Origin: Herbaspirillum sp. DW155
GTDB lineage: Bacteria > Pseudomonadota > Gammaproteobacteria > Burkholderiales > Burkholderiaceae_D
Direction of reading: 5' to 3'
NCBI RefSeq assembly: GCF_037076565.1
Contig: NZ_AP029028.1
Location: forward strand, 4,836,001-4,900,000
Length of the DNA: 64,000 nucleotides
Shown: piece by piece, positions 30,730-33,831 of the stretch
Numbering within the stretch: position 1 is the stretch's first letter
Layout: each line of letters starts with the position of its first letter
The notes under the pieces: model-generated
The model's input: only the letters and a program-made list of their open reading frames with translations
Told to the model about the DNA's origin: nothing
The model's database searches: none
Translations under genes and position numbers: made by a program

Positions 30730-31662
30730 ATGTCCCAGCAACAAACTTATCCCCGCGACCTGGCCGGCTACGGCCGCAACCCGCCGCAAGCGCGCTGGCC
30801 CGGCCAGGCGCGGGTGGCTTTGCAATTCGTGCTCAATTATGAAGAAGGCGGCGAGAATTGCGTCCTGCATGGTGATCCTGCATCCGAGCAATTCCTGTCG
30901 GAGATCGTGGGGGCGGCGGCTTATCCGGCGCGGCACATGTCGATGGAATCGATTTACGAATATGGTTCGCGCGTCGGCGTGTGGCGTATCCTGCGCGAGT
31001 TCGAAAAGCGTGGTCTGCCGATGACCATCTTTGGCGTGGCCACGGCCTTGCAGCGTTCGCCGGAGGTGACGCAGGCGTTCCTGGAGCTGGGGCATGAGAT
31101 TGCCTGCCACGGCTTGAAGTGGATTCATTATCAGAACATCGATATCGAGACCGAGCGCGCGCATATGAGGGAGGCGGTGCAGATCTTCCGGGAGCTGACG
31201 GGGAGCGCGCCGCTGGGCTGGTATACGGGGCGGGATTCGCCCAATACGCGGCAGCTGGTGGTGGAGCATGGGGGCTTTGCGTATGACTCGGATTATTACG
31301 GGGATGATCTGCCGTTCTGGATGGAAGTGGAAACCAGTGACGGGGTGAAGGCGCCGCATCTGGTGGTGCCGTATACCCTGGATTCCAACGACATGCGCTT
31401 TGCGACGCCGCAGGGGTTCAATACCAGCGAGCATTTCTATCAGTATCTGAAGGATAGTTTCGACGTGCTCTATGCGGAGGGCGAAGAGGCACCGAAGATG
31501 CTGTCGGTGGGGATGCACTGCCGCTTGCTGGGGCGGCCGGGGCGGTTCCGGGCCTTGCAGCGATTCCTTGATTATGTTCAGTCACATGATCAGGTTTGGA
31601 TTTGCCGGCGGATTGATATTGCTGAGCATTGGAGGAAGACGCATCCTTTTTCGGAGCGCTGA
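30730..31662 (+). CDS. puuE: allantoinase PuuE (polysaccharide deacetylase fold)
   Basis: A 310-residue enzyme of the polysaccharide-deacetylase superfamily. The start YPRDLAGYGRNPPQARWP and the FVLNYEEGGE segment are typical of PuuE, the metal-independent allantoinase that opens allantoin to allantoate. Other marks are EIACHGLKWIHYQ and WYTGRDSPNTR. It ends the permease-racemase-allantoinase operon and is followed by a strong terminator. From about 31150 onward its codons change style, with many GGG, GAT, TAT and ATT, unlike the neighbouring genes. Confidence 0.92.
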   Translation: MSQQQTYPRDLAGYGRNPPQARWPGQARVALQFVLNYEEGGENCVLHGDPASEQFLSEIVGAAAYPARHMSMESIYEYGSRVGVWRILREFEKRGLPMTIFGVATALQRSPEVTQAFLELGHEIACHGLKWIHYQNIDIETERAHMREAVQIFRELTGSAPLGWYTGRDSPNTRQLVVEHGGFAYDSDYYGDDLPFWMEVETSDGVKAPHLVVPYTLDSNDMRFATPQGFNTSEHFYQYLKDSFDVLYAEGEEAPKMLSVGMHCRLLGRPGRFRALQRFLDYVQSHDQVWICRRIDIAEHWRKTHPFSER

Positions 31663-31686
31663 TTTATTCTTTTTTGGAATGAATTG

Positions 31687-31724
31687 ATACCGCTTGGGGA
31701 TTTATCCTTGGGCGGTATTTTTTT
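31687..31724 (+). terminator. rho-independent terminator after puuE
   Basis: ATACCGC (31687-31693) pairs with GCGGTAT (31712-31718), followed by a run of seven T residues. An inner GGGA/TCC pairing can extend the hairpin. Confidence 0.85.
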
Positions 31725-31740
31725 CTTTGTTGGTTTGCGG

Positions 31741-31916
31741 TTTGGGGTAGTCTGCACGGATTACTGTCCTGCGCTCTAGCTTAATTCTTATCATTCTCCG
31801 GTCGGAAGAACGCGCCGGGGGCGGCCCGGCAGCCGCTCACTTTTCTTGTCTCGCCAAGAAAAGTAAGCAAAAGAAGGCGACCGCAGCTGCACCGCCCTCC
31901 TTCGGAGGGTCCCCGC
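31741..31916 (+). repeat. left arm of the long inverted repeat
   Basis: It matches the reverse complement of 32367-32540 over nearly its whole length. It starts at TTTGGGGTAGTCTGCACGG and passes through GCGCTCTAGCTTAATTCTTA to CCCTCCTTCGGAGGGTCCCC. Only a short block near 31768 and another around 31887-31893 differ. It contains its own hairpin, ACTTTTCTTG (31839-31848) with CAAGAAAAGT (31855-31864). Confidence 0.88.
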
Positions 31917-31996
31917 TTCAGAGAGCAACAAAACGGGGAAAATAGAGTCGCTTCGCTCCGACTATTTTCCTGATCCGTTTTGTTGCTCTCTGAAGC
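31915..31996. repeat. 82-nt hairpin/cruciform sequence
   Basis: A perfect 22-bp outer stem (31915-31936 with 31975-31996, starting GCTTCAGAGAGCAACAAAAC) is followed inward by GGAAAATAG/CTATTTTCC pairing and a loop around CTTCGCTC. Confidence 0.85.
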
Positions 31997-32085
31997 GGCG
32001 GCGCAGATGCGGACTGCCTGACTGCCTCGCCTTCGGCATCGTGAGACCTCCTACTCGCCTTCGGCTTTGCGTTGGCGTTCTCTAG

Positions 32086-32124
32086 CCTTCGATACGTCGC
32101 TGCGCGACTACTCAGGTCGAACGG
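32086..32124. repeat. dispersed-repeat-like motif with GTCGC-TGC-GCGAC core
   Basis: CCTTCGATACGTCGCTGCGC continues to ACTCAGGTCGAACGG. It resembles a short intergenic motif common in Burkholderiales and other bacteria (CTTCGATACG...CTACTCAGG..GAACGG); this is from memory, not from a search. It has a 5-bp inverted core, GTCGC/GCGAC. Confidence 0.55.
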
Positions 32125-32217
32125 ACGGAAATTATTTAAACAATAAAAACTAAAAAAAGAAAAACCCGAAATCCGAAATTCGAAACACAGAGCGGAAGTG
32201 TGAATGTGCAAAAGGTC

Positions 32218-32257
32218 GAGGCCGCAGGCGAGCCCCCGCGAGGCCGCAGGCGAGCCC
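32218..32257. repeat. tandem 18-bp repeat
   Basis: GAGGCCGCAGGCGAGCCC occurs at 32218-32235 and again at 32240-32257, a 22-bp step with a 4-nt spacer. Confidence 0.8.
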
Positions 32258-32282
32258 GTTTGGTTTTTCCCCATAGAGCCAG

Positions 32283-32368
32283 CCGCCGCAGCGGAGCGAA
32301 AAGTGGATCAGAAGAATAGTGGGAGCGAAGCGACTCTATTCTTCCCACTTTTCGCTTCGCTGCGGCGG
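32283..32368. repeat. second large hairpin, next to the right arm
   Basis: CCGCCGCAGCGGAGCGAAAA (from 32283) pairs with the complement ending near 32368, with small mismatches. An inner stem AGAAGAATAG/CTATTCTTC (32310-32319 with about 32336-32344) encloses a GGAGCGAAGCGA loop. It mirrors the 31915-31996 hairpin in layout but not in sequence. Confidence 0.78.
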
Positions 32369-32540
32369 GGACCCTCCGAAGGAGGGCTGGCTCTCTGGGG
32401 TCGCCTTCTTTTGCTTACTTTTCTTGGCGAGACAAGAAAAGTGAGCGGCTGCCGGGCCGCCCCCGGCGCTCCGCTCCGACCGGAGAATGATAAGAATTAA
32501 GCTAGAGCGCAGAAAAGCAATCCGTGCAGACTACGCCAAA
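32367..32540 (-). repeat. right arm of the long inverted repeat
   Basis: This is the inverted copy of 31741-31916. It includes GGGACCCTCCGAAGGAGGGC, the ACTTTTCTTGG/CGAGACAAGAAAAGT hairpin and TAAGAATTAAGCTAGAGCGC, and ends in CTACGCCAAA. It ends about 50 bp from the puuD stop codon. Confidence 0.88.
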
Positions 32541-32589
32541 CGGAACAACCAGAAAAACAGCCCGCCAAGACAAACCAACAATCAAAACA

Positions 32590-33831
32590 TCACCGAACGG
32601 CAGCACCGCTTTCAAACCACTTCCCGATAATGGCGCGTTCATCATCGGTGATATGAGTCATGTTCCCAAGCGGCATAGCCTTCTGCACCACGGCTTGTTG
32701 ATAAATCTGCTGAGCATGCTGCGAGATATGTTCAGGCGAATCGAGCAGAACGCCCTTGCCGGGAACGGGCATGAGGGTAGGTTGCGCCGAATGACACTGA
32801 ATGCATCGCGCCTGAATGACTTGCTGTACTTGAGCAAACGCCCCACCCGCCTCAGCAACAGCGGCAGGAGCAGAAGCACCAGCAACGGGCGAAGAAGCAG
32901 CAACCGGCCTGGCCTGCATGGCAGGACTCATCCAGACGATCACCGCCAGCAACAAACCAACAGCAATCCCCGGATACCACCAGTTATAAACCCCCTTGTG
33001 CCGCAACACGAAGAACTGCCGGATCAAGGCCCCCGCCGCCATGATGCACAACAGCACCACCCAGTTATGCGGCGCCGAATAAGTCATGCTGTAGTGATTG
33101 GACAGCATCGCAAACAACACCGGCAAGGTGAAGTAAGTGTTGTGCACGCTACGCTGCTTGCCGCGCTTGCCATGAATCGGATCGGGTGCTTGTCCGGCCC
33201 GCATGGAAGCCACCATCTTGCGCTGCCCCGGAATGATCCACACCAGCACGTTCGCGCTCATGATCGTCGCCAGCGACGCCCCGCTGATGAGGAAAGCCGC
33301 CCGCCCCGAGAACAGATGACAAGCCGCCCACACCGACACGATCACCTGCAACCCCACCAGCAGATTGACCAGCCGGTCCGCCCCCGGCCGATCCCCGATG
33401 GTGCTGCAGATCGCGTCATAGATCAGCCAGTTGAACACCAGGAACGCAATGGCGGTGCCGCCGGCCATCGACGCCGACATGTCGAACACGTTGCGGTCCA
33501 CCAGAAACACGTTCGCATTGAACAGATACAACAAGGAAAACAGCGCAAAGCCCGACAGCCAGGTACTGTAGGACTCCCAATAAAACCAGTGCAGATGCTC
33601 CGGCAACACCTTCGGCGCCAGCAGGTACTTCTGCGGATTGTAGAAACCGCCACCGTGCACCGCCCACAACTCGCCGCCGACGCCCTTCTCCTTCAACTCG
33701 GGATCGGTCGGTGCCACCAGACTGTTGTCCAGCCAGACGAAATAAAACGAAGAACCGATCCAGGCAATTGCCGTGATCACGTGCAGCCAGCGCAGCAGCA
33801 GATTCAGCCAGTCAAGTAGGTATGCTTCCAT
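32590..33831 (-). CDS. puuD: membrane urate oxidase PuuD with cytochrome c domain
   Basis: A 413-residue inner-membrane protein. About eight helices make up the PuuD urate hydroxylase domain (LRWLHVITAIAWIGSSFYFV, WAVHGGGFYNPQKYLLAP, SVHNTYFTLPVLFAMLSNHY). A C-terminal periplasmic c-type cytochrome domain follows, with CIQCH near residues 341-345 and a Met ligand in AMPLGNMTH. PuuD oxidises urate and passes electrons to the respiratory chain instead of making H2O2. It converges on puuE across the repeat element, which links urate oxidation to the allantoin steps. GGGCGGAG lies upstream of the ATG. Confidence 0.93.
   Translation of the reverse strand: MEAYLLDWLNLLLRWLHVITAIAWIGSSFYFVWLDNSLVAPTDPELKEKGVGGELWAVHGGGFYNPQKYLLAPKVLPEHLHWFYWESYSTWLSGFALFSLLYLFNANVFLVDRNVFDMSASMAGGTAIAFLVFNWLIYDAICSTIGDRPGADRLVNLLVGLQVIVSVWAACHLFSGRAAFLISGASLATIMSANVLVWIIPGQRKMVASMRAGQAPDPIHGKRGKQRSVHNTYFTLPVLFAMLSNHYSMTYSAPHNWVVLLCIMAAGALIRQFFVLRHKGVYNWWYPGIAVGLLLAVIVWMSPAMQARPVAASSPVAGASAPAAVAEAGGAFAQVQQVIQARCIQCHSAQPTLMPVPGKGVLLDSPEHISQHAQQIYQQAVVQKAMPLGNMTHITDDERAIIGKWFESGAAVR

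Follow-up and report, generated by a model that had tools for sequence, protein, structure and literature searches.

Paired intergenic modules with a predicted triple-helix pseudoknot as the ends of a candidate cassette-like mobile repeat in Herbaspirillum and other bacteria

Introduction

The closest described counterparts of the element reported here are the REP/BIME sequences – intergenic palindromic units arranged as inverted pairs and tandem arrays, in which complementary changes have been documented (PMC2817692). With these sequences, and with REPINs, the element shares its intergenic palindromic units, their inverted pairs and tandem arrays, changes that preserve pairing and a non-autonomous character; it differs in that its unit is a fold of 200 nt that includes two pseudoknots and a predicted triple helix, that its units form an A/B heterodimer and that it carries single-gene cargo. 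It resembles MITEs in being short and multicopy, with inverted ends and a transposase-free interior, but its ends appear to be kept as single-strand folds rather than as protein-binding sequence. Integron attC cassettes likewise have single accessory genes as cargo, and their recognition by shape over sequence offers a fitting analogy, whereas the module described here comes in inverted outward pairs and has a multi-stem fold of about 200 nt. In Neisseria, minimal mobile elements and repeat-flanked intergenic mosaics hold, according to strain, different genes at a single position flanked by conserved ones. Such alternatives are also found here (at the locus pairs L158/L249 and L152/L205), with the difference that the boundaries of the element are one conserved, structurally defined module that recurs across a whole class.

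For the fold itself, the nearest parallels are the pseudoknots of telomerase RNA and the SAM-II riboswitch, which share with the module U.A-U and C.G-C triples and a pyrimidine loop 1 in parallel orientation to the purine strand in stem 2. In the predicted geometry, as in telomerase RNA, loop 1 of the H-type pseudoknot occupies the major groove of stem 2. The module departs from both in that its 6–8 triples are deduced from three-strand covariation and lie in a repetitive intergenic element, for which no template, reverse transcriptase or ligand is known.

The element between puuE and puuD

The window – the whole 64,000-nt stretch of DNA analysed – belongs to the 5.47-Mb genome of the Herbaspirillum host (G000). 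Between the convergent genes puuE (30730–31662, forward strand) and puuD (32590–33831, reverse strand), the initial annotation had placed a nested inverted-repeat element free of plausible open reading frames; the element is real, lacks any plausible ORF and is larger than proposed, extending from 31726 to 32555 as an A module (reverse strand), a core and a B module (forward strand), that is, as an outward-facing heterodimer. Its arms (31726–31981 and 32300–32555) are inverted near-copies, as had been seen, yet 256 nt long each rather than about 175 nt, and 85% complementary; each does carry its own ACTTTTCTTG/CAAGAAAAGT hairpin (31837–31866 and 32415–32444). Alignment of the arms of the genus identified both as outward-read copies of a single module of about 200 nt with a lineage-specific tail, occurring in two homologous but distinct types: A, on the left at puuE/puuD, and B, on the right.

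An outer stem, one long and one short hairpin and two pseudoknots make up the fold of the module. In the B module, whose folded 200-nt core (32268–32467, forward) matches our covariance model R1 – built without the two pseudoknot helices – at 234 bits, the outer stem P1 (32269–32400; 32269–32282 with 32387–32400) encloses the long hairpin P2 and the short hairpin P3 (32372–32386). P2 (32283–32368; 24 bp, 96% paired) joins 32283–32305 to 32346–32368 and has a 5' bulge GATCAG (32306–32311) and a tip stem P2b (32312–32319 with 32336–32343). The pseudoknot with the predicted triple helix follows at 32401–32444: S1 pairs TCGC (32401–32404) with GCGA (32427–32430), the third strand CTTCTTTTG occupies 32405–32413, and P4 joins 32415–32426 to 32433–32444. 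A second pseudoknot (32445–32467) consists of P5 (32445–32449 with 32456–32460) and P6 (32451–32455 with 32463–32467), after which a species-group-specific tail (32468–32533) runs up to a conserved GTGCAGACTAC end and into A/C-rich DNA, all on the forward strand.

The A module lies on the reverse strand, with its folded 200-nt core at 31814–32013 (226 bits), its predicted triple-helix pseudoknot at 31837–31876 (third strand 31868–31876; P4 31855–31866 with 31837–31848) and a tail (31741–31813) that is the mirror image of the B tail. Its long hairpin, P2 with tip P2b (31913–31998), has a perfect stem of 24 bp where 22 bp had been noted. The long-hairpin stems of A and B are unrelated in sequence and yet each fully paired, so that the two large hairpins represent one structure with covarying stems; their earlier description as unrelated in sequence holds for the lower stems, whereas the structures are homologous and their tip is conserved.

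The core (32014–32267) contains a dispersed repeat, TTCGATACG..CGAACGG (32085–32124), with some 30 further matches across the host genome, and a direct repeat in tandem (32217–32257); both had been recognised beforehand and now measure 40 bp instead of 39 bp and, for the direct repeat, 19 bp at a 22-bp spacing instead of 18 bp. In other genera, the core position spans 15–1800 bp and often holds one gene. No sigma-70 promoter was found inside or around the puuE/puuD copy, and cores as short as 15–50 bp in other genomes leave scant room for two promoters. Beyond both tails (32534–32600 and 31660–31745), G and T are scarce on the outward strand, which is rich in A and C and includes short tandem repeats, CCCAAAA among them; similar A/C-rich outer DNA flanks the copies at loci L091, L093 and L095, and it resembles Rho-loading sequence or a product of slippage.

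A search of the host genome for the same layout, as the initial annotation had advised, recovered the whole element at 4546810, 1659782 and 1673083 (88–93% identical) and its right-hand half alone at 3725367 – in all, four outward A/B pairs, with an identical A–core–B order, and one lone B module. A separate 26-nt search for the arm hairpin returned exactly nine hairpins, all within these five loci. As single strands, the folds are far more stable than their shuffles (z = -10.2 and -10.8), which, together with the recurrence at three loci plus the half copy and the confinement of all arm hairpins to the five loci, argues against a chance structure.

The outer arm of the fourth dimer (L042:5610–6773, equal to G000 C1:1673609–1674772) is interrupted by a segment resembling an insertion sequence, with a transposase-like reading frame and with CTATTTATGAAAT terminal repeats that border the break; it seems to have severed the outer end of the 1673083 copy, now a 61-bp fragment at 1674712. 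Three of the five sites adjoin purine-related genes, namely puuE/puuD (window 30730–33831), a uraD-type/guanine deaminase-like pair (G000 C1:3723337–3727240) and purU (1671947–1672990), an adjacency that is possibly coincidental.

A conserved fold on the outward strand

In an initial set of 25 modules, standard pairs filled 94.4% of the cells at 75 proposed pairs, compared with 45–50% when the partners were slid, and two-sided changes affected 45 of the 75. R1 was then used to gather 150 modules from 91 loci (140 distinct rows), in which compensatory, two-sided changes were present at 75 of 75 pairs and 90.5% of cells were paired, as opposed to 38–43% on sliding. The two pseudoknot helices, which lie outside R1, were still 92% and 88% paired in these 150 modules; P5 and P6 both covary, P6 being absent from the search model. 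This comparative record establishes the fold as a conserved one, and it also indicates which strand folds: cells with G.U outnumber those with A.C by 75 to 18 and 293 to 129, and the outward strand is therefore read as the folded one. The suggestion of a structured RNA locus thus stands as to its fold, which is strongly supported and selected on the outward-reading strand, while the molecule may be RNA or single-stranded DNA. At L074:3641–3793 (genome G015), the tip of the long hairpin is inverted relative to all other modules, as if the loop had been flipped between its own stem arms.

A predicted triple helix

Between S1 and P4 lies a pyrimidine run that matches the purine strand of P4 letter for letter in parallel, making it a third strand that covaries, within the central pseudoknot, with the purine strand of a stem. 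The types encountered include TTCTTTT/AAGAAAA, TTTCTTT/AAAGAAA, TTTTCTTT/AAAAGAAA and TTTTTT/AAAAAA (third strand/purine strand), as well as TTCTCTT/AAGAGAA and TTCCTTT/AAGGAAA, and the two strands vary together in length. The rule is obeyed in 144 of 147 modules; matching runs average 6.57 across the 37 distinct types, whereas permuting the types gives 4.20 ± 0.27 and, in 2000 permutations, never more than 5.14. Asymmetric types exclude ordinary antiparallel pairing.

Sixteen loci fetched later carry the motif in nearly all arms, and in them S1 covaries as TCGCC/GGCGA, TGTCC/GGACA, TGCCC/GGGCA, CGGCC/GGCCG and CGCGC/GCGCG. Two features of triple-helix H-type pseudoknots are thus present – parallel covariation between loop 1 and the stem 2 purine strand, and pairing of stem 1 with the hairpin loop – and the central pseudoknot probably forms a triple helix of 6–8 layers in the real molecule. 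The three-strand covariation also opens this triplex to direct test.

Distribution and novelty

R1 matches at E ≤ 1e-4 occur in 106 of 300 genomes, representing 54 of 134 genera, of the host's order, and matches at E ≤ 1e-5 in 80 of the 369 class-level genomes, nearly all from outside that order; these counts are lower bounds, since the filters were strict and few candidates were scored per genome, and the E-values are rough because the calibration was short. The hits have high bit scores, and neither the pairing check nor the triplex check depends on E-values. Carriers include Herbaspirillum, Herminiimonas, Collimonas, Undibacterium, Thiobacillus, Variovorax, Roseateles, Paucibacter and Deefgea; the arm hairpin is, as the initial annotation suggested, widespread among betaproteobacteria. 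Copy number per carrier genome ranges from 1 to 83, the highest counts of R1 hits being those of G321 (83) and G078 (54), two genomes without any Y1 transposase. Carriage on a plasmid was seen in one record only, and none of the phages and viral contigs searched contained the element.

At the Rfam gathering score, neither the window element (whose best score fell far below the cut-off) nor 16 further loci gave a match, and no description was found in Rfam 15, in the protein and element families tested or in the open-access literature searched. The element thus apparently represents an undescribed one: a module with a long predicted triple helix, matching no Rfam family, in about a third of the sampled genomes of the order and about a fifth of those of the class.

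Paired modules, cargo and arrays

Modules with a neighbour within 3 kb point outward in 82 of 100 cases, stand in tandem in 13 and point inward in five; 15 further class-level genomes showed the same pattern on inspection. The outward A/B arrangement is thereby well documented, and with it the inverted unit pairs typical of REP/BIME. Inward-facing pairs, all with low scores, are confined to L184, L193, L216 and L238 of Pseudorhodoferax and L198 of Paucibacter, and may belong to a different subfamily.

Paired modules are separated by anything from a few bases to about 1.8 kb, and the long interiors usually consist of one gene, though some contain no convincing gene. The cargo includes a macro domain, a methyltransferase, Mrr, an HNH endonuclease, PDC-S52/DUF6988, a bacterial PH domain, a SnoaL-like protein and unknown lipoproteins; a DUF433/DUF5615 pair sits between tandem modules. 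No transposase recurs in the interiors as a MITE parent transposon might, the one IS481-like gene, seen by eye, being limited to L157.

In genome G015, three to five modules follow one another head to tail in arrays whose period is about 480 bp (L106:3136–5500, L107, L108 and L109). Each array unit is fused to two other common intergenic repeats, and the repeat type found at 32085–32124 of the window is built into every one; two adjacent L106 units are identical and therefore reflect a recent duplication.

Occupied sites, exchange and polarity

Orthologous sites were compared at the level of the genus in about 25 genomes. The puuE/puuD site is occupied in seven species, whereas nine sister species – the empty sites whose search had been recommended – have 80–170 bp of ordinary intergenic DNA there. 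A module pair is present in G000, G008, G019 and G020, and single or tandem modules lie downstream of puuE in G010, G015 and G003. At the pcaC site, at least five species carry the element and two have an empty site. Five sites are common to several Herbaspirillum species, and most copies are therefore old.

The cargo at a given site can differ. One site is bounded by an SNF2-type helicase gene and an MFS gene: its interior is a methyltransferase in L152 and a different gene in L205, and the empty pair L195 and the tandem array L188 have the MFS-side flank in common with these two loci. The Thiobacillus loci L158 and L249 share both flanks (84–87%) and arms, with unrelated interiors, and L155 and L206 differ by about 420 bp. 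Such swaps could have arisen by ordinary homologous recombination through the conserved flanks. L157 and L160, both beside a GST gene, were rejected as a shared site, the element lying on opposite sides of that gene.

Modules of the same type are 93.3% alike across sites within a genome, compared with 84.9% for one site across genomes, and a module tree groups them mostly by species within type; this higher likeness and the grouping indicate concerted evolution within genomes, A with A and B with B.

In two Herbaspirillum genomes, orientation is fixed with respect to the replication origin: the single and array clusters face the origin in 16 of 16 cases in G015 and 7 of 7 in G005 (23/23 in total; sign test by hand, about 2e-7). 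The strand of the flanking genes was rejected as the source of this polarity, as these strands are near even (20 leading, 25 lagging). The polarity does not extend to other genera, with 9 of 16 (G229) and 9 of 26 (G078) toward the origin by hand count.

A candidate cassette-like mobile repeat and its alternatives

The combination of a conserved fold, an outward heterodimer, a replaceable interior, insertion polymorphism and homogenisation fits a non-autonomous, cassette-like mobile repeat whose ends would work in folded, single-stranded form, most probably as RNA; we hold this explanation with about even confidence. Ends A and B would be homologous, distinct outward-facing modules of about 200 nt, in which P1, P2 and P3 are followed by the H-type pseudoknot with its pyrimidine-motif triple helix and then by the second pseudoknot. 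An enzyme acting in trans, encoded by host or element, would read the fold and not the sequence, and the fold would be the recognition signal for mobility; this could be why the stems drift freely while their pairing stays. The interior would be passive, either empty, as in the puuE/puuD copy, or holding one accessory gene. Copies would enter intergenic regions, pass on vertically and be homogenised within each genome, and the repeated ends at fixed sites would permit interiors to be exchanged. If the modules do delimit exchangeable gene cassettes, they would give defence genes and other accessory genes a so far unnoticed means of moving from one chromosomal site to another.

The earlier proposal of a composite mobile element of MITE type is accordingly borne out in its inverted ends, multiple copies, occupied and empty orthologous sites and swappable interiors, while no autonomous partner was found. 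The element has no linked transposase, recombinase or reverse transcriptase, and, with element ends placed approximately, no target-site duplication was recognised at puuE/puuD, at pcaC or within G434. The putative enzyme would best be sought in the genomes with the most copies. The near-absence from plasmids and phages sits oddly with an actively spreading element.

The main rival, unlikely in our judgement though the most credible of the alternatives, is a structured RNA that serves the host at the 3' ends of genes as a knotted barrier, insulating or stabilising transcripts against read-through and exonucleases, with copies selectively kept at favoured sites; an outward pair would ensure one sense module on read-through from either convergent gene. 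It would account for the strong selection for an RNA-like, G.U-tolerant fold, the placement of copies downstream of genes and terminators, the A/C-rich, G-poor tails outside the Herbaspirillum modules and the long persistence at five sites, but it is hard to square with the ordinary intergenic region of the nine sister species, the wide range of copy number, the unrelated genes in the interiors and the copies found between tandem genes as well. Moreover, puuE retains an intrinsic terminator of its own (31686–31725, forward), upstream of the element and distinct from it: termination was rejected as the sole function, and because this terminator precedes the element and copies also occur between tandem genes, the bidirectional transcription block once suggested is unproven. 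Since each direction of read-through across an outward pair yields one sense module, a 3'-end role could coexist with a mobile repeat.

Less credible, and again unlikely, is a fold that acts not as RNA but as single-stranded DNA at the replication fork, in the manner of IS200/IS605 elements or integrons. DNA, too, forms pyrimidine triplexes and G.T pairs, and the origin-facing clusters of the two Herbaspirillum genomes hold their direction whatever the gene strand; yet that polarity is not general, two pseudoknots with a long triple helix are commoner in RNA, and a Y1 transposase is missing from nine carrier genomes, including those with 54 and 83 copies. RYYYAAC/GTTRRRY core sites were absent from the first and last 40 nt of all 150 modules (0/150), so that identity with attC was rejected; the direct orientation of integron cassettes is likewise replaced by mostly outward inverted pairs, direct arrays (G015, L188) being in the minority.

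Doubtful, and ranked below both of these, is the boldest form of the cassette-like mobile repeat: a new class of RNA-mobilised cassette, in which a reverse transcriptase or recombinase acting in trans would recognise outward A/B transcripts with telomerase-like triple-helix pseudoknots and deliver copies of the enclosed gene to intergenic sites oriented with replication.

A REP/BIME/REPIN system moved by a RAYT (Y1) transposase is very improbable. The element's palindromic units, intergenic and arranged as inverted pairs or in tandem, recall BIMEs, for which complementary mutations are also reported (PMC2817692), but a 200-nt unit with two pseudoknots and a triplex differs from a short head-plus-hairpin. 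Barring an unrelated substitute for RAYT, the mechanism is contradicted by the distribution of Y1 genes and was rejected: none occurs in G028, G078, G267, G292, G051, G048, G275, G321 or G195, all of which have R1 hits, and the sole one of G000 (at 4486715) lies about 60 kb from the nearest module (4546899) and is not flanked by repeats. Membership of RAYT systems, of integrons and of Rfam families was thus not borne out by the features tested.

Finally, an accidental pile-up of ordinary intergenic repeats, which the initial annotation had foreseen should the arms never be found as a pair, has next to no probability: an unrelated 40-bp dispersed repeat does lie inside the core and the G015 arrays do fuse the module to other common repeats, but the covariation within the modules speaks against it, and the recurrence of the pair, in A–core–B order at four host loci and in dozens of genera, refutes it.
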